A stretch of 30,102 nucleotides of DNA from a candidate division SR1 bacterium (GTDB taxonomy: Bacteria; Patescibacteriota; Gracilibacteria; Absconditabacterales; Absconditicoccaceae). The notes under the pieces are model-generated. The model saw nothing but the letters and a program-made list of their open reading frames with translations, made no database searches and had not been told where the DNA came from. The DNA lies in contig PDOX01000010.1 in the NCBI GenBank assembly GCA_002746475.1, positions 1 to 30,102 on the forward strand, written 5' to 3'. The number at the start of each line of letters is the position of its first letter. The stretch's first letter is position 1. The position numbers and the translations under genes are program-made. Below are positions 3,379-29,608 of this stretch, piece by piece.

Positions 3379-4602
3379 ATGCATCATACTCTAAAAAAAA
3401 TTAACAATATTGACTGTCTGTTTGTCCCTATGGAAAGCAGTAATTCTACGACCATACAGATTTTGGTAAAGGCAGGAAGTGTCTATGAGAACAGAAAAAA
3501 TAACGGGATTAGTCATTTTCTGGAACATATGTTTTTCAAAGGGAGTAAGCGTTACCCTACTGCAAAGATTCAGTCACAGAACATTGAAAATTTTGGTGGA
3601 GAAGTGAATGCGTTTACCAGTAATGAATATGCTGGCTATTATATCAAATCTGCTCCTGAATTTACGCTCAAAGGGCTAGATATTTTGGCGGATATGATTG
3701 TCAATCCTTTGTTTCCTGAGGAGGAAATGGAGAAAGAAAAAGGCGTAGTGATCCAAGAAATCAGAATGTATGAGGATAATCCTGCTAGATTGGTCATGGA
3801 TTTGTCAGATTTTGCGTTCATCGGTGATAATAACTATGGAAGACCAATCCTGTGAAGAGAAGAAAATGTACAGGCAATCACGCAAGCGGATTTGTTCGCA
3901 CACAAAGAAAGCTTGTATACCAAAGATAATATGGTCATTGTCATCTCTGGGAAACTTGATCAGCAAGCGGAACTAGAAGAGCAAATTTGAACATTATTCG
4001 CAGATCTACCTGAAAAACACACGGGAAGCAAAACTCCCCTGGCATGGACATTTCCAAAAATACAGGAAGACTGCTACAAAAAAGGGACCGAGCAAAATCA
4101 TCTGGTGATCTCTGCAATGGGATTTGATGGAAATGATGAGAATAGATTTCCTGCAAAAACTTTGATGTATATCTTGGGGGGAAACATGTCATCAAGATTG
4201 TTTCAAGAGATCAGAGAAAAAGAGGGACTTTGCTACTATATTCATGCTGGGTATGGACAGAGTCTGGACTATGGGAAATTCACTATTAGAGCAGGAATCC
4301 AAAAAGATAAATTTGATTTTGGGAAAGAAAAAATCTATGCAGAACTTGCAAAAGCCAGCAAAGGCGATATAACAGCAAGCGAATTGAAAAATATCAAATG
4401 ATATATCAAGGGAAGTCTCCAAATGGGGATGGAAACTTCTGATGAAGTCGGATATTTCTTAGGACTACAACATCTGATCTATGGAAAAATAGAAAGCATT
4501 GCCGATATGCTTGCATCCTATGAAGCTGTGAGTTTAGATCAGGTAAATGTCGTGGCAGAAAAACTTGATGCGAAAAATTTATTTGGGTATTGGATTGAGT
4601 AA
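3379..4602 (+). CDS. M16-family zinc metallopeptidase (processing-peptidase-like)
   Basis: 407 aa, typical of single-chain bacterial M16B peptidases. The inverted zinc motif HFLEH is at residues 46-50, with the third ligand expected at Glu127 in VVIQEI. FGGEVNAFTSNEY (72-84) and the C-terminal-half motif GGNMSSRLFQEIREKEGLCY are also typical. Three UGA codons are read as Gly (PILGREEN, EEQIGTLF, NIKGYIKG), all in plausible positions. No signal peptide is evident, so it is probably cytoplasmic or exported by an unusual route. The start at MHHTLKK is preferred over an upstream in-frame hydrophobic stretch that overlaps the terminator. The substrate is unknown. Confidence 0.92.
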
Positions 4603-5824: not shown

Positions 5825-5965
5825 GTTAGAAATTCTAACGAGTTGTTTATAATCAATATATATATATATAATGTCAAGTCTTTTTTGTTTTTTATATACT
5901 TTTTTTCATATTTTCTGTCTTGATTTTGAGGATAAAATTCCTATACTGTATCTGTTTTGAGGATA
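5825..5965. promoter_or_regulatory. intergenic control region with palindrome and direct repeats
   Basis: Between the divergent lipoprotein (start 5757) and the InsA-like gene (start 6020) lie: a perfect 15-bp palindrome GTTAGAA-A-TTCTAAC at 5825-5839; a TA-dinucleotide run around 5857-5870; and two direct repeats of TTTTGAGGATA at 5924-5934 and 5955-5965, spaced 31 bp start to start (about three helical turns). They look like operator sites. The cognate regulator is unknown. Confidence 0.4.
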
Positions 5966-6019
5966 TAGTATTTTTTTATATATTTTTTATCTATCTTTTT
6001 AATTACTAATATAACACAG

Positions 6020-6329: not shown

Positions 6330-7733
6330 ATGAAAAAACTTAAAAAATTATTACTCGCAGTATTTGTTATTTTTGGAATTGCTGGACTGAGTGGATGTAC
6401 ACTCACCCAAGAGCAAGCCCACAATGTAAAAGAAAAAGAACAACAAGTTTTGATCACAAGCATCCCTCCGATTGCAGACATTGCTGAACATATCGCTGGG
6501 GAGCGTTTTGAAATATATAGTATTGTGAAGGAAAATAGCAGTCCAGAAGAATATGAAATCAGCACCAAAGACCTCAAAAAAATTGCTGGTGCAAAGGCGT
6601 ATCTTGTCAATGGGACTTTTGCTTTTGAAAAGCAGTATTTGGAAAATATCAAAACAATGAATCCTGATCTTGATATCGTAGAAATCAGCAAAAATATCAT
6701 ATTATTATTGATGGATGATGATGAAAAGCATCATTATACGCTCAATGCTTTTTGAGTAGAACCCTTTTGGCACCTTGAAGTGGAAGACTGAAAACTTTAT
6801 TATACTAATCCTGAAGGAAGACAAGATCCATTAGCGATCAGTATTACTCAAAGTTGAGAAAATCTAAGAGTTGATTGACCTACGGCAAAAGTCGTCTTTA
6901 CGGCAAAAAAATGTGTAGATGAGAGCAAATGAGATACGCATGACTATACTGTTCAAGTTGATTTTCCTTGAATCCAAGTTTTTGGATGTGGAGATAAAAT
7001 AACGGATGAAGACACCTATGAACATAAAATTTCGTCATTCTGAACGAAGTGAAGAATCCAGTCTACTGCTTCAGCTTCAAAGAAAATAGATTCTTCGGCT
7101 ATTGCCTCTGAATGACACTCCCATGGAGCGTTTGATCCGCATTATTGGGTTTCTAAAAAAAATATTCAAATTATCGCTCAAAATATTGCTGATTACCTTA
7201 CTTCAATAGATCGTATCAATGAAGTATACTATACTAATAACTTAAAAGCATTCTTGGAAGAGCTTAATAATATTAGAGAAGGACAAAAAGTTTCGTCATT
7301 CTGAACGGAGTGAAGAATCCAATCCACAGAATCAAAGGAAATAGATTCTTCGGCTATCGCCTCTGAATGACATAGACATCAGCATCTCTATATCTATCAC
7401 CCTTCGATTAGATATTTTGCTGAGGAAATGGGACTGGATGTCATAGCGTTCCAACAGCATGGGAAAGCGACAACGAGTGCAATGATTGAAAAAGTGTTAG
7501 AGCATTTTGATACTGACTATGATGTCGTGCTTGTAGATCCGCAAACTCCTCAAATTTTTATTGAATATTTGACTCAGCAAGGGATTACTACTCAAGTTTT
7601 TAATCCAATTAAAAAAGATCTTTTAACGAATCTTTCCTCTTTATATGCCTTGGTTTCACAAAATGCACACACACAAGACCACATACAAAAACACCATGAA
7701 CACGATGAGACAGCACATCATCACAGCGAATAA
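6330..7733 (+). CDS. znuA: zinc/manganese ABC transporter substrate-binding lipoprotein with embedded extra domain and in-frame repeats
   Basis: 467 aa, well above the roughly 300 aa usual for ZnuA/TroA (cluster A-I) proteins. Lipoprotein signal with LSGC (Cys23). The N-lobe is about 35-130 (VLITSIPPIADIAEHIAGE). The C-lobe contains the metal-site DPHYWVS (about 269-275), a second lobe with YHPSIRYFAEEMGL, and a His-rich tail. Between the lobes, at about 142-225, sits a domain starting EPFWHLEV and ending FGCGDK that resembles the secreted COG3650-type fold. Two copies of a palindromic repeat are inserted in frame (about 234-263 and 321-347). Twelve UGA codons are read as Gly, half of them in the repeats. 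The gene overlaps znuC by 29 bp. It should capture Zn2+ or Mn2+ and deliver it to ZnuB. Confidence 0.9.
7030..7117 (+). repeat. in-frame palindromic repeat element, copy 1 (within znuA)
   Basis: 88 bp beginning TTTCGTCATTCTGAACG and ending GCCTCTGAATGACA. The two ends form an imperfect inverted repeat (GTCATTC...GAAGAATC against GATTCTTC...GAATGAC). It is shared with copy 2 at 7291-7372 with few substitutions and a 6-bp length difference. It encodes SSFGTKGRIQS...SSAIASEGH without breaking the frame, using three UGA-Gly codons. Confidence 0.85.
7291..7372 (+). repeat. in-frame palindromic repeat element, copy 2 (within znuA)
   Basis: 82 bp with the same borders as copy 1 (TTTCGTCATTCTGAACGGAG ... 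GCCTCTGAATGACA). It again contains three in-frame UGA codons. It interrupts the ZnuA C-lobe between IREGQK and HRHQHLYIYHPS, where the parent protein would be continuous. It is 6 bp shorter than copy 1, a multiple of three. Confidence 0.85.
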
Positions 7734-8457
7734 TCTGCATTTCAGATATGATAGCAAACAAGCCCTGCTGGAAGGGATTTCTTTTGCTATTCAGCAAGGA
7801 GATTTTGTGGGGATTATTGGAGCAAATGGAGGTGGAAAATCTACGCTATTGAAATTGATGTTAGGGTTTTTGAGACCACAAAAGGGGATACTTACCCCAC
7901 CCCAAACCCCTCCCCTCGAAGGAGAGGGGCTCCCCCCTACGAGGGGGGAATACAAGGGGGGTACTATCTGATACATTCCTCAATTTAGCGCTATTACCCA
8001 AGATTTCCCTATTAGTATTAGAAAAGTTGTAGAAAGTGGAGCAACGCATGGTTGGAATTTTCTCGCCACGCCTCCTCATGAAAAAATCAATCAACTGTTG
8101 GAACAATTTCAACTGACGGATATTGCTGATCATCTGATTTCAGAGGTTTCAGGTGGGGAAAGACAAAGAGCCTTGATTGCCAGAGCTTTGGTACAAGATC
8201 CAGATATTATTATCGCTGATGAGCCGACCTCAAATATTGATATTCATAGAGAAAAGGAAGTGTTTAATATTTTTGAGCAACTACACAAACAAGGGAAGAC
8301 CTTGATCGTTGTGAGTCATGATATTTTTTTGTTGAAAAAGTATGCGACCATTGTCTTTGGAGTAAATAGACATCTCCATACGCACAGACCAGAAGATATT
8401 ACCGAAAAATTGATTTATGAAAGTTATATCTGTCCTGACTGTCATCATCAGCATTAA
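7705..8457 (+). CDS. znuC: zinc/manganese ABC transporter ATP-binding protein with in-frame repeat
   Basis: 250 aa. Walker A GANGGGKST at 39-47, Q-loop in GYIPQFSAI, ABC signature VSGGERQR (148-155), Walker B IIIADEP (168-174) and H-loop VVSHD. The closing CPDCHHQH adds a Cys/His tail of possible metal-binding character. Between GFLRPQKG and GYIPQ a GC-rich repeat inserts about 24 residues (TPPQTPPLEGEG and following) in the strand region before the Q-loop, again in frame. UGA at 7969-7971 is the Gly of IGYIPQ. The start is ATG 7705 or the in-frame ATG 7696; both overlap the znuA end, implying coupled translation. It energises uptake through ZnuB. Confidence 0.93.
7893..7963 (+). repeat. GC-rich palindromic element inserted in frame in znuC
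   Basis: A C-rich then G-rich tract bounded by TACCCC and GGGGTA, containing two nested inverted repeats (CCCCTCCCCTCGAAGGAGAGG and CCCCCCTACGAGGGGGG). It is far more GC-rich than the surrounding AT-rich genome. It resembles the short palindromic repeats dispersed in many bacterial genomes that translate as PPQ-PPL-type peptides. Confidence 0.8.
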
Positions 8458-10612: not shown

Positions 10613-11362
10613 TTACCTCACTCTACAATCTACATAGCTCGCTAAAATTTCTTTTGCTTTTGCTACACTTTCTGCACTCGGTGGTTTTACTCCTTCAAGT
10701 CCATATTTCCATCCCATTGATTCCCATTTTTCTACTCCAAGCGTATGATAAGGAAGAATAGTGATTTCTTCCAAATTTTTTCTATTCTGCAAAAATTGCC
10801 CTAATTGATGCACATATTTTTCTATCGCTGTCCATCACGGAACATAGACATGTCTCACCCAATATTTGGTGTTGTTATGCTTTCTATTTTCATCACTCTC
10901 CAAATATTCCAACATCTGTAAAGTATGTACATTCGGTTGCCCGGTTAGTTTTTTGTGCATTTCATTATCAATATGCTTGATATCTAGCAATACTAAATCC
11001 ACATAGCTCAACAATTCTTTCACATCAGGAGTCAAAATAAATCCATTACTATCAATACAGATATGCACGCCCATTTCTTTAATTTTCTTAAACAAAGGAA
11101 TGAGATTTTTAGCTTGCAATGTAGGTTCTCCACCAGAAAAAGTTATTCCTCAGTTTTTGATATATCCTCTCTGTTTATTGATATATGCGATGATTTCCTC
11201 ATCTTCCATCATCTTCCCTCATTTTTCTGGAATCGTATCAGGATTGTGACAATATAAACACTTAAAATGACACCCTTGCAAAAAAACGACCAACCTAATT
11301 CATGGTCAGTCTTGGGTACTAAAGGTCTCTATTGAATGTACACGAATCCTGAATATTTTCAG
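10613..11362 (-). CDS. pyruvate formate-lyase activating enzyme-like radical SAM protein
   Basis: About 249 aa. The conserved N-terminus HSIETFSTQDGPGIR (two UGA-Gly in QDGPG) leads into the radical-SAM cluster motif CHFKCLYC (CX3CX2C), then TFSGGEPTLQ, LLDIKHID and a C-terminal ILPYHTLGVEKW, all matching PflA. These enzymes install a glycyl radical on pyruvate formate-lyase or a related enzyme; no partner is in the window. The start is uncertain: no ATG lies near the expected N-terminus. The coordinate uses CTG at 11362-11360, and in-frame TTG codons lie further up. The first roughly 45 bp overlap the end of the dnaE fragment in another frame, pointing to a rearrangement at this junction. 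Confidence 0.85.
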
Positions 11363-12242
11363 GCGTCTGATGCACAGGGAAAAGTGATTGATACATATCA
11401 ATTTCAATATTCACACTCTCCAAAATGCTATTATTCGTAGCAATTCGTTGCTGAATTTCAGTATCTGCAAATCCATTTGCCTGACACGTTGCAACAATTT
11501 CTTCCTCACTCTGAATAGAAAAATCTCCAATCGGCTTCCTCCTATCTTCATCATAAATCTTCTTCACATCTTTGATCGCTAGTGCAATTTCCCAAGATTC
11601 TTTGTCTTCTTTGTTAATATAACGATAGGTATTTCCAACAATTACCCCAAGTTCGTGCTTTGTAGCCAATGTTTGAACAGCATGATTAATCTTTTCTATA
11701 TTTGGAAGTTTACTATGTTCTTGCGCAATAATTTCCAAAAACACATTTTCTTTCCCAAAAATAGTAATCAATTTCTGCAAAATTTCTTCTGTCTGTTTCT
11801 CATCAGCATTTTTCAAAATCTTCTTTCCTAACCATGATTCCTCACCACCAAAAAATGCAATAATATTACTCGAATACTGTTCCAGATGCTTCAAATCAAT
11901 TTTTGCCCTGCCATCAATTCCTTCAGTATTCGCGATAGAAACTAACTTAATCAAATTCAAATATCCTTCATAATTCAAGGCCAAGAGACAAATATTTCCT
12001 ATTTCATGATGCGGTCTAAAATCTACGATATCAACCACAAATCCAAGTTCAACTCCCAAAATCGGGGTCATCTCTTGCGCTTTCGCAGATTGATAGAGTT
12101 TTATTGCAGAATACATCCCTCCCAAGTCAGTAATCGCAATCCCTTGCATCCCAAGACTTTTCGCCTTGCTCACAATATCCGCAGGTTGCCCAATCGCCTC
12201 CAAAAATGAAAAGGTGCTATGTCAATGTAAATGTGTAAACAT
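11319..12242 (-). CDS. DnaE N-terminal PHP-domain fragment
   Basis: 307 aa where DNA polymerase III alpha has about 1100. It begins MFTHLHGHSTFSFLEAIG (UGA as the Gly of HLHGHS), the PHP signature, and continues GIAITDLGGMYSAIKLY and PILGVE. The usual TDH metal ligand is TDL here, so the PHP metal site looks degraded. The protein reaches the start of the polymerase region (LFPVHQTPENIQ) and stops after nine unrelated residues at TAG. The polymerase core, with its catalytic Asp residues, is absent. It is probably a truncated duplicate or the product of a deletion that joined it to the PflA gene; an active split DnaE is less likely. The symbol is withheld for that reason. Confidence 0.8.
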
Positions 12243-12379
12243 CAAATATGCTATACCTTATAGAGTAAATATAAATTTTTAGTTCCAATCTAATAAGATA
12301 AATGATATAAAAACAAAGCATTTTTACAAGATATTTTCCTTTTCATCAGCTTTTCCATATTTTTATCTGGAATACCTTG

Positions 12380-13214
12380 CTAAATTTTCATAACATAGAA
12401 AAGCTGGTCTTCTGATGAATATGCACATTCAGAATTATCCGCTGTTGCTGGTTCTTCTTGTCATTTTTCTACTTTTTTTACTGAAGAACAGAGATAAAGT
12501 TCTTCCATTTGATTTTGTGTTCTTTCCCAACATCCAGAACTATCTATACCTGGACGCTTCCAAGCCCCTCATGGTGTTGAATGATGTCTTGGATTAGACA
12601 AAATATAATTTGCTGAGGATGGGGTTTCTACTTTTGCAACAAGTACTGCTCCTCAAGAATTATCTCAATGATATTTAAATATTTGGTATAAATATTCTCA
12701 TGGATTTTGGGCATGTCATCATTTTTTTCGATGATCTCAATGCCAATACGTATCATTATTAAACCACTTTCATGCCATTTCATTAGTTATTGGAGTATAA
12801 TGAATTTTTATAGTATTATTTTTTTGAGGGTCTTTGGGAATTTTCTGGATATAATTTGACAAACTTCCTTGTAATCTCTTTATATCTCAAAACATAGTGC
12901 AAAATCAACAAGCACCCTTGTCATGCCATCAACAATCATCCAGTTTCGGAAATTCCCCTGTATCCATCTTGTATCTTTGTATCGCCATGGCTACATTTCT
13001 CAAATCTGCTACTCTCTTAGTATCTCTTGCTCTAGATGTTACTCACATTATTTTGGGTAATAATGCCCCTGCGAGTATTCAAATTACTACTATGACAATC
13101 AACATTTCTACGAGCGTAAACGCTAGATTTCTAGTCTTTTTCTTAAAATTTATTTTTCTTTTAAAGGTCTCCCCCCCCCCTCATCTTCTGAGGTTCCAAG
13201 CTACTTCTCAACAT
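12380..13214 (-). CDS. type IV pilin-like prepilin, out of frame at a G10 tract (putative phase-variable gene)
   Basis: From about 13160 down to TAG at 12380 there is a long frame (UGA as Gly, more than a dozen UGAs) with a class III signal: KKKTRNLA then FTLVEMLIVIVVIGILAGALLP, followed by a pseudopilin-like helix SRARDTKRVADLRNVAMAIQ and a Cys-rich C-terminal domain. No start codon exists in that frame next to the signal. Two ATGs upstream (13214, preceded by AAAAGGA, and 13184) are in the other frame: MLRSSLEPQKMRGGG. Between them and the pilin frame on the coding strand lies G10 (plus-strand C10 at 13171-13180). Nine or twelve Gs would join the frames; ten gives an early TAA. The ON product would be about 277 aa. 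A sequencing or assembly error in the homopolymer is the main alternative. Confidence 0.75.
13171..13180 (-). repeat. G10 homopolymer next to the pilin start (slippage site)
   Basis: Ten consecutive C on the plus strand (G10 on the coding strand), two bases past the ATG at 13184-13182. It is a striking tract in AT-rich DNA and sits exactly where a change of one G switches the pilin frame. Such tracts after start codons are classic contingency sites in surface-protein genes. Confidence 0.8.
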
Positions 13215-20786: not shown

Positions 20787-21875
20787 ATGGAAAGAATTGG
20801 TATTGATATTGATTCTATCTTGGATTTGGTAGAAGACAACCCCAATATCTCAGATTTACATCTTTCAGGAGGGAATTTTATTGCTTATAGACTCAATGGT
20901 GATATTGTCATCGAAGAAAAGGCAGGGAGACTGAGCAATGAGACACTAGAATTGTTTCTCAAGCAATTATTTCACTGAAATCCTCAGAGATTTAATAAAT
21001 TTTTAGGAGATAAGGAGGCTGATTTTGCCTATATGAGTAAGCATGGAACGCCGTATAGAGTAAATGCTTTTTTCAAAACAGGAAAGATTGGATTAGTCAT
21101 GAGAAAGATTGCAAAAAAGTCTAAAAAATTGGATGAATTAATGTTTAAACATATTTCTGATAGTATAAAAAATAATGTTCTCAATAAAGATCAAGGATTA
21201 TTTATTATTTCATGACCTACAGGGAGTGGAAAAACGACATCAATTATTTCTATGCTTGAAGAAATTAATACGCATCAAACGAAAAATATTATTTCTATTG
21301 AAGACCCTATTGAATTTATTTTCAACCAAAACAAATGTTTGATTTCTCAGAGGGAAGTAGGAAATGATACTTGGTCATTTAAAAATGCACTAAAATCAGC
21401 AATGAGAGAAGATCCTGATATTGTTTTCGTTGGAGAAATTCGTGATGCAGAAACAGCTGAAGCAGTACTTAATTTAGCTGAAACTGGACATTTGGTATTT
21501 ACCACTTTACATACAAGTTCTGCTTCACATACTATTAGTAGATTCATGTCATTTTTTGCATCTGATATTCAAAATGGAATCGCAGAAAGATTAGCTCATT
21601 CTCTATTGGGAGTCATGGCTCAATCATTGGTAAAACATGCAAAAGGACATACCAGAGTCGGAGTATTTGAATTAATGCTAAATACGACGTCTATTAAAAA
21701 CAATATCAAAAAATTTGAATTAGATCAATTGGATATTATCTTGCAAAATCCTGGAACACAAAATATGATTAGTTCAAAAAATTATGCTCAAGCTTTGCTA
21801 GATAGTGGTATTGTAAAAGAAGAAAATGTAGAACGCTTTTTACAAACAAAAGGTGTGGTTTCAAATGTCGAATAG
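20787..21875 (+). CDS. pilT: type IV pilus retraction ATPase-like protein
   Basis: 362 aa, the PilT size. The N-terminal domain has ISDLHLSGG; the RecA-like ATPase has Walker A GPTGSGKTT (143-151, its first Gly being UGA), Asp box EDPIEF (172-177), Walker B DPDIVFVGEIRD (209-220) and His box TGHLVFTTLHT (233-243). A C-terminal helix KNNIKKFELDQLDII corresponds to the PilT AIRNLIRE region. It should power pilus retraction at the inner-membrane platform. It links functionally to the pilin gene at 12380-13214, 7.5 kb away on the other strand. Confidence 0.93.
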
Positions 21876-23653: not shown

Positions 23654-24430
23654 TTAACATTCTTCTTCTATTTGTTTAATCTGATCTCTAATGAGAGCAG
23701 CTTTCTCGAATTCCCAAGATTGAATTGCTTCATCCAATTGTTTTCTCAAATTTTTTGTGATTATACTTTTTTCTGCTTTAGTTGCTCTTTTTAGTTTCTT
23801 ATTTTTTCATTTATGGACACTCATAAAAGATTGTTCCGTAGATGCACCAGTTTTCACAGACTGTAATTGTTTAACATGAGAAACAACTTTTTTTGGTTGA
23901 ATATCATTATCTTGGTTAAATTGCTGTTGAATCGATCTTCTACGATAGGTTTCTCGTAAAGATTTTATCATAGATTCAGTAAAGACATCAGCATACAGAA
24001 TTACTTCTGAGTCGGGATTTCTTGCTGCTCTTCCAATAATTTGAATAAGTGCGGTATTAGATCTCAAAAATCCCTCTTTATCCGCATCAAGAATCGCAAT
24101 CAGAGAGACCTCAGGAAGATCAATCCCTTCTCTTAATAAATTTATTCCTACAATAATATCGATAACTCAGGTTTTTAATTTTGTCAAAATATCCCATCTT
24201 TCCATCGTATCGATTTCACTATGAAGATAGTATGCTTTGTATCATTTAGAAAGCAAAAAGTTTGTAATTTCCTCTGATGATTTTTTAGTCAATGTAAGGA
24301 GAAGTACTCTTCATTTTTTATTAATATGCTCATCTATTTTTTCCAACATATGATCTACAAATTCTTTTGTAGGTTTGGTTATATCATTTTTATGTGTTTG
24401 AAGATAATCTTCAATATTTGGGAAATTCAT
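23654..24430 (-). CDS. C-terminal half of UvrB (helicase C and UVR domain), N-terminus missing
   Basis: 258 aa where UvrB has about 660. It starts with a short linker then [13 protein letters not shown], proceeds through the second RecA-like domain ([59 protein letters not shown] in pieces, QIIGRAARN) and ends in the UVR coiled coil ([17 protein letters not shown]). Walker A, motifs Ia-III and the DNA-clamping beta-hairpin are absent, so it cannot hydrolyse ATP alone. Four UGA-Gly codons, including HINKKGRVLLL. The start ATG 24430 is preceded by ordinary AT-rich DNA with no trace of the N-terminal half. It is either a relic or a paralogue that acts through the UVR domain, which binds UvrC/UvrB. 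Confidence 0.85.
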
Positions 24431-28009: not shown

Positions 28010-29608
28010 ATGCCTCATAGACTCAAAGAACGACAGGAGAAAATGGCAAAAAAGATTAAAAAAGATAATTTTAGAACCTATCTCAAAACTGTGGTAAGTT
28101 GGAGTCCTTTGATGTTTTATAAAAATAATTGATTAATAAGTATTTTCCCAGAAGTTTGAAGAATATCAGATATTCAAGACTTTGAGAGTTTTTCTTCTCA
28201 AAGAGATACAATATTGCAAAAATGACTGACTATAGCTTCTAATATATCATTTTTCTGAAATTTTAGCAAATTGATACAAAATATCACCTTTCCTGCAACA
28301 ATTAAGTATATGACAAATGAAAATTCAGAATATGCTGATTCTCTTGCATGAGTAAAAAATGTCTATCTTTCCAGTAATATTACTTTTTGAAGTGAAAATG
28401 TGCTATATAGTTTTTCTGTAAAAAATAATAATACGAATATTTTAAATTCTGTGGCTGTTAATAGCTGATCTCATAATATTTATTTCTGTTCTTGAATTAC
28501 AACTTCCCACAATATTTTTTATTCTAGATATATTACTAATTCCTCAAATATTTGGTTTTCAGATAACCTTGTAAATTGTAGAGAGTGCATCAGTTGTAAT
28601 AACTTGGAACATACAACCTTTTGTATAAACAATAAGCAATATAAAGAAAAAGAATATTATATCCAAAAAGAAAAGATCCTAAAAGAAAAAAAATCTTTTG
28701 CAGAAAGATATGCTACTCTAAATGCTATATGAAAAAATATCGCTAGTGAAAATATTGAATGATCTGCAATTTCACATTCAGATAATATTGAAAATGGATA
28801 TTTAGTACATCAAATAAAAAACGGGAAAAATCTCATTATGGTATGATGAAAAGATGCTTGTCAAGAAATGTATAATTGTTTTCAATGTGCCTCTAAATTA
28901 GAAAACTTTAATTATTCTGCAATCTCAGCAGGGCGATGAGAACACTTATATTGTAATTATAATTCTTCATGATCCAGTATGTATTATACGATTTTTTGTG
29001 AAAACTGTTCCTACTGCCTTGGCTGTATCGGGCTAAAAAATAAGTCCTACTGTATCCTAAACAAACAATATACCAAAGAAGAACGACATGATAAAGTTGA
29101 TGAGATCTTTACGCAGATGGAGAAAGACTGAACCCTATGAAAATTCTTTCCATGAAGTATGAATCCATTTTACTTTAACGATACCGCTGCCTATCTCATT
29201 GATGATACTTTTACCAAGGAAGAAGTGGAAGCAGAAGGATACCTACGAAGAGATGAAAAAATCAAAGTGGATATTCCAGAGGGTGCGGAAATCGTGTATG
29301 TAAATCCCCCTCAATCCCCCTTTAGCAAAGGGGGAAGCGAAGCGGGAAAGGAAACGAGTAATTCCCCCTCTTTGCTAAAGAGGGGGTCAGGGTATCCCAT
29401 CTCTGAAATTGGAAACAAGGTCCCAAAAGTAGATAGTGGAGCTGAACGATGGATAGATCCTGAAATACTCAAAAAAGTTATCCAAGACAAAGAAGGGAAC
29501 TACTATAAAATCGTTAAGATGGAATATGATTTTCTCATGAAGCATGGACTTCCATTACCGAAACTCCACTGGCTAGACAGAATCAAGTTAGGGTTTACAT
29601 TTAAGTAG
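28010..29608 (+). CDS. Cys-rich CPR-type protein (often auto-annotated caib/baif family), with in-frame repeat
   Basis: 532 aa, readable only with UGA as Gly (about 17, all in the first 383 codons). It begins MPHRLKERQEKMAK. A central stretch (about 100-185) repeats a roughly 20-residue NIYF/NITF-S pattern that suggests a beta-helix. Cys clusters are C190-x2-C193-x2-C196 and C330-x2-C333-x2-C336-x2-C339 followed by NKSYCILNKQYTKEE, probably metal knuckles. The family is known from CPR genomes, usually unnamed or called caib/baif, without experimental function. A palindromic element (29302-29393) inserts about 30 residues in frame near the end. The following gene is a paralogue with the same N-terminus. 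I do not assign a reaction. Confidence 0.8.
29302..29393 (+). repeat. palindromic element inserted in frame near the 3' end of the Cys-rich gene
   Basis: Two stem-loops, TCCCCCTTTAGCAAAGGGGGA and CCCCCTCTTTGCTAAAGAGGG, flank a short spacer. The translation reads NPPQSPFSKGG...NSPSLLKRGSG, a peptide typical of dispersed palindromic repeats. The element has a distinctly higher GC content than its surroundings and keeps the host frame open. Confidence 0.8.

Follow-up and report, generated by a model that had tools for sequence, protein, structure and literature searches.

Slippage switches acting at pili, at promoters and at the 5′ ends of genes are already known. In Bifidobacterium breve, according to the available part of the report (PMC9187656), an intragenic G tract switches sortase-dependent pili, its slippage-changed length deciding pilus production, and populations contain tracts of mixed lengths. 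In Neisseria meningitidis, a poly-G run lies in the promoter of PorA, where a change in expression has been shown (PMC3639595, available part), and homopolymeric tracts at gene 5′ ends, such as the poly(A) of Listeria inlA, have been surveyed in a work whose accessible sections stress poly(A) and poly(T) and describe slippage that leads to a very short product by a reversible change of frame (PMC2831843). The locus described here shares something with each of these. As in B. breve, a G tract lies in a pilus gene; however, the B. breve pili are sortase pili of a cultured actinobacterium and their switching was shown experimentally (PMC9187656, same part), whereas our locus is known from its sequence alone; it encodes a type IV pilin, its tract stands next to the start codon, and the bacterium is UGA-recoded and uncultured. 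G runs in promoters, as at PorA (PMC3639595, same part), are found on contigs C83 and C100 of the same genome and in its relatives, here again as DNA sequence only. Like the tracts at gene 5′ ends, the tract of our locus would give a very short product through a reversible frame change, but it is a G run in a genome of about 31% GC.

Within the candidate phyla radiation (CPR), the nearest case in the literature is the hypervariable PTD-repeat gene of the Gracilibacterium BD1-5, in which, according to its authors, slippage should vary the repeat length (PMC6851277, accessible text). It resembles our locus in combining repeat variation, a predicted surface protein and a UGA-recoded CPR bacterium; however, its nine-base repeats are in frame, their variation is mostly synonymous, there is no on/off switch in the text available, and the term 'phase variation' appears a single time, among the references. 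Type IV pilins of CPR bacteria have also been studied in Saccharibacteria, where host binding was lower after deletion of the major pilin pilA2; 'phase varia' and 'homopolymer' are absent from the available text of that report (PMC12206443). Our literature searches, by titles and the starts of abstracts, found no description of repeat switching in CPR groups, in agreement with the original prediction, which knew of no described phase variation in a UGA-recoded CPR pilin. Where phase variation and the candidate phyla radiation were mentioned together, it was in reference lists or in connection with water chemistry only, and the words Patescibacteria and Candidate Phyla are absent from a 2025 review of phase variation (PMC11868660).

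A G10 tract at the start of a type IV pilin gene

The stretch of DNA analysed here (the window) comprises 30,102 nt of contig PDOX01000010.1 (assembly GCA_002746475.1), from a bacterium that reads UGA as glycine (code 25). At the 5′ end of the pilin gene, its minus strand reads ...cagaagATGA GGGGGGGGGG agacc..., with ten consecutive Gs at 13171-13180. An ATG (13182-13184) stands one base (A 13181) ahead of the tract and shares its frame with another ATG further upstream (13212-13214); translation from the latter gives MLRSSLEPQKMRGGGDL and then ends at a TAA (13161-13163). The prepilin lies in a different frame, which after the tract comprises 262 codons and a stop (12380-13168, minus strand, code 25) and encodes an N-terminal methylation motif, a long helix and a globular domain. 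This frame is open from 13219 to its stop codon at 12382-12380 and encodes ...GGGGETFKRKINFKKKTRNLAFTLVEM... followed by the full pilin; ahead of the FTLVE helix it contains no ATG, GTG or TTG, and its first ATG (13105) is found within the hydrophobic helix. Translation thus bears out what had been claimed from the sequence, namely that both upstream ATGs are in one frame and the prepilin in another, and that ten Gs lead to an early TAA. It had also been proposed that nine or twelve Gs would join the ATG to the pilin, and this frame arithmetic, worked by hand, is right, since joining lengths are those divisible by three. The tract amounts to four overlapping G7 matches in the window, as compared with a shuffle mean of 0.25, and none of 100 shuffles reached four. 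A promoter role for the tract was considered and rejected: we saw no TTGACA/TATA pair around it, and promoter-like sites near the window pilin were at chance level (seven found, shuffle mean 6.1).

The protein encoded beyond the tract has the features of a type IV prepilin. It carries a class III leader and a methylation motif with glutamate at position 5 (FTLVE), the predicted cleavage falling before the phenylalanine codon at 13120-13118, and 14 of its 262 codons are TGA, read as glycine. It matched the Pfam family N_methyl (PF07963) with 27.8 bits (cut-off 21.2, E 1.7e-6) and T2SSG with 20.1 bits, just below the cut-off of 21. The AlphaFold2 model (mean pLDDT 86.4) shows a helix at residues 18-70 and a beta-rich globular domain, and when it was submitted to Foldseek the best eight of 32 rows were type IV pilins or a pseudopilin, with none of the 32 reaching E 1e-3. 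Pilus machinery is encoded as well: a T2SSE-family ATPase (20787-21875, plus strand, T2SSE 5.3e-48), PilT-like by our reading, lies in the window, and a prepilin peptidase (PF01478, score above cut-off) on contig C44, so that the peptidase and the assembly/retraction ATPase by which we judged a type IV prepilin are both found in this genome. None of the genome's four pilin paralogs has a tract at its start, which is of the ordinary kind, and a regex search of the 52 pilin-like starts in the fetched loci found a repeat at one, that of the window pilin.

Long G tracts elsewhere in the genome and in its relatives

The genome assembly (561 kb, 102 contigs, 65.6% complete) contains 76 runs of at least six Gs preceded by A, C or T, among which nine are 9-12 long and none is exactly 8 long. 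About 0.4 runs of nine or more would be expected by arithmetic with P(G|G)=0.174, a value measured on 105 kb of fetched contigs that had been picked for carrying tracts or pilins; within these 105 kb, G runs extend up to six, none has a length of 7 or 8, and then nine of 9-12 appear. Both the shuffles and the genome-wide counts put the tract beyond chance length, and the placement, at the junction of start codon and gene in the window and in promoter spacers elsewhere, would let length alter expression.

Besides the window, the tracts are on contigs C25, C42, C44, C54, C70, C83, C88 and C100. Two occupy promoter spacers, the tract of C83 lying inside TTGACA-16-TATACT upstream of a protein with a peptidoglycan-binding domain and that of C100 inside TTGACA-17-TATACT upstream of a 107-codon ORF and an ORF of more than 1,700 codons. 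The C42 tract is close to a gene start. Five tracts, that of the window pilin included, lie in ORFs: the C54 tract is in frame, and those of C25, C44 and C88 are out of frame like that of the window pilin; the piece downstream of the C25 tract is a GNAT acetyltransferase, and the C88 ORF has a transglutaminase-like domain and a VWA match under its cut-off. On C44, the gene broken by a G10 tract (L065 4004-5788) is on the same strand as the prepilin peptidase and ends about 0.2 kb upstream of it, so that a second pilus-related locus may be switched; its downstream frame holds a possible GTG start, which makes the off state of this gene uncertain. Loss of mismatch repair was considered as the cause of the tracts and is not supported, since MutS_V is encoded in 41 of the 49 family genomes, this one included, and the tracts are therefore not explained by a repair defect.

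Runs of at least nine Gs after A, C or T occur in 59 of 118 genomes, this genome counted. Within the family 13 of 49 have them, this genome being the richest, and the trait is patchy since the other 36 have none. The arrangement TTGACA, 0-8 nt, G7, 0-8 nt, TATA was found at 11 distinct places in eight of the 118 genomes, while the reversed pattern, used as a control, was found in none of the 118. The spacers are 14-17 nt long at the ten of these 11 places that were measured, that of L121, printed as 13 to TTATAC, being read as 14 to TATACT. In the relative G020, matching flanks surround three tracts (12, 11 and 9 Gs), two of them ahead of proteins with a start that, judged by eye, resembles a signal peptide and with Listeria-Bacteroides repeats, the third at a contig end; a fourth tract (G12) is upstream of a DUF285 protein. 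In genome G032, two large proteins whose starts resemble signal peptides (also by eye) contain in-frame tracts, of 11 and 9 Gs, some 56-88 codons from the beginning; one of the proteins matches Listeria-Bacteroides repeats, and no Pfam family matches the other. The same G8 promoter is found in two species of one genus, with no difference in length. A scan of genome contigs for TTGACA-G8-TATAAT yielded at least 120 stretches spread over many phyla, three from Saccharibacteria, one from Nomurabacteria and one from Peribacteria among the matches listed; this promoter form is therefore not special to the lineage. Another genome of the same class, G091, has 85 G runs of at least nine, the next highest count of the 118 being 13.

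Variable repeats at the same place in homologous pilins

When homologous pilins were compared for the same tract, as the original prediction had proposed, we found glycine runs or (RE)n at the same place, with varying repeat lengths. In the homolog P0006 the sequence is ...GTQKMRGGDVKSKIKFKRNTKLAFTLMEM, and the reading frame is kept at the point where the window shows ...PQKM followed by the tract and then ...KINFKKKTRNLAFTLVEM; ...TQKMRGGD...AFTLMEM in P0006 lines up with ...PQKM, tract and ...AFTLVEM in the window. In P0007, KGGGN stands at the tract position. The database entry of the window's own pilin, P0001, begins at MLIV inside the helix, past the lost start, and P0009 and P0010 likewise begin at MLIV. 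A C-terminal QLYY motif was present in 114 of 214 proteins among the matches listed, these being the best 120 of each of the first two of three protein searches, in 90%-identity clusters, so that the counts are not frequencies. In the 114, the leader ahead of the helix is a glycine run in 18 and (RE)n in 38; 17 have no start there, and 41 show neither, a group that includes short leaders of the ordinary kind as well as some shorter RER or REN ones.

Length differences between otherwise identical homologs can be seen at the protein level. Collapsing the RE or Gly runs before the helix yielded 33 matching pairs, a list which, built in this way, leaves room for further differences; of the 33 pairs, 25 have bodies at least 89% identical, and the other eight, at just 46-54%, are not alleles. 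Two pairs are identical over 229 (P0166/P0168) and 230 residues and differ in repeat count. P0150 (MYERERERNN...), P0156 (MRERERNN...) and P0167 (MRERNN...) have one identical 230-residue body and differ in their repeat-coded N-termini alone, and between P0159 and P0162, whose bodies are 92.7% identical, the run differs in length by a single glycine. From these proteins we infer that (RE)n is probably encoded by a GA run and the glycine run by a G run, and the occurrence of both MY and MR ahead of one body would be in keeping with a pair of ATGs that differ in frame. P0177-P0179 and P0174, with a GGGKSSLKAG leader, group with (RE)n-leader proteins, their bodies being linked at at least 95% identity, as if the 5′ end and its repeat had been exchanged between alleles.

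Searches for the DNA of repeat-bearing homologs did not find it, and none of 62 candidate stretches from a protein search of genome contigs was confirmed. P0025 matched 40 of the 49 family genomes at E 0.001, the best match outside this genome (4.2e-22) covering only residues 14-124 of 263; a class-wide search at E 1e-18 hit two of 353, namely this genome and G009; P0153 found one of 379 in a phylum sample at E 1e-20, again this genome; and in viral contigs two of 88 candidates were hit, at 28 and 36% identity.

A candidate contingency switch and its alternatives

The bacterium belongs to a UGA-recoded CPR lineage, and we consider it very probable that the G10 tract, lying where translation of this type IV pilin would begin, serves as its contingency switch. 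Slipped-strand mispairing during replication would add or remove Gs; some tract lengths would join ATG 13184 to the pilin frame and allow the subunit to be made, while at the captured length translation would stop after a few codons, leaving the window pilin off, and a further slip could restore it. The assembly would then represent an off state or an off-state consensus. Since four paralogs with normal starts remain, one switched pilin is to be expected rather than total loss of pili, and switching would probably change one pilus type or the composition of the pilus. At the other tracts of the genome, length would tune transcription where they are promoter spacers, and further tracts would act within ORFs. 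The earlier reading of the locus as a phase-variable pilus is thus supported by the anatomy of the site, by the further long G tracts and by the repeat-variable homologs; counting against a switch are the tract-free paralogs, the single repeat among 52 pilin starts, the patchiness of the trait and the shared G8 promoter of invariant length.

A miscounted homopolymer or consensus error, with the tract fixed in frame and the pilin simply made with a glycine-bearing leader, appears unlikely. It would suit a fragmented genome of 102 contigs and 65.6% completeness in which the G12 tract of C70 adjoins a gap of N, and four of the five ORF tracts are out of frame, near the two thirds that chance gives and as miscounting would also give. 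However, a tract of random length would be out of frame two times in three, the promoter-spacer tracts and the repeat differences on identical bodies are independent of the count at 13171-13180, and a miscount would alter the captured state more than the reading of the site. We give less credence still to a decaying pseudogene, a dispensable paralog hit by a frameshift: in the assembly the frame is broken, and four paralogs remain, but 262 codons stay open past the tract and carry the invariant and near-invariant positions listed from 48 homologs, N_methyl scores above its cut-off, the AlphaFold2 model is confident and the break coincides exactly with the G10 run.

The least probable alternative, by a small step, is that the pilin is always made, either from an unusual start past the tract (ATA 13153) or by slippage of polymerase or ribosome on the G run. 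A leader beginning at this ATA would be about as long as that of the paralog on C76, and G runs can cause transcript slippage, which could also act on top of a DNA switch. ATA starts are rare, however, the in-frame homolog P0006 reads through to upstream ATGs, and the (RE)n homologs put the start ahead of the repeat. 

The observations may be joined in a broader picture, to which we give an even chance: UGA-recoded CPR bacteria would carry genome-wide simple-repeat switches that randomise the surface (pilins and secreted repeat, peptidoglycan-binding and transglutaminase-like proteins), the position of the pilin switch being kept while the repeat, a G run or a GA run, is swapped between lineages. 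Where the repeat is a GA run, the presence of two ATGs that differ in frame (products MYERERE and MRERERE, followed by an identical body) would leave two thirds of repeat lengths productive.

Few means of surface variation are known in CPR bacteria, whose genomes are small. The pilin switch, if true, would make the cells of a clone differ from one another in attachment, and truncated pilins in CPR genomes, such as P0001 starting inside the helix, may be off-state alleles and not pseudogenes. A benefit of switching might lie in contact with host cells, by analogy with the lowered host binding after pilin deletion in Saccharibacteria (PMC12206443, available text).

Other features of the window and genome

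Directly before the start codons of all four pilin paralogs we observed a terminator-like hairpin with a T run (L059 ~5900-6000, L060 ~2700-2800, L061 ~350-440, L062 ~3480-3580), which may be a leader controlling these pilins. A known RNA element was looked for there and rejected, with no Rfam match to one at gathering score in the window and the four paralog contigs; the one Rfam match in the window is a tRNA. Two minus-strand ORFs of the window look partial: a 308-codon ORF with a PHP domain (11319-12245) resembles only the N-terminal part of DnaE, and a 258-codon ORF (23654-24430) has only the C-terminal domains of UvrB. These may be gene fragments, frameshifts or assembly breaks. Within a ZnuA-like zinc-uptake gene, two near-identical repeats (85-91%) lie in frame at 7022-7117 and 7283-7372, as if a dispersed element had been absorbed into the coding sequence. 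Finally, a long ORF of the window contains an inverted repeat whose arms are rich in G (29308-29392; also 7932-7961), and many of the genome's contigs carry pairs of oppositely oriented G6 runs; this is probably a palindromic element dispersed through the genome.
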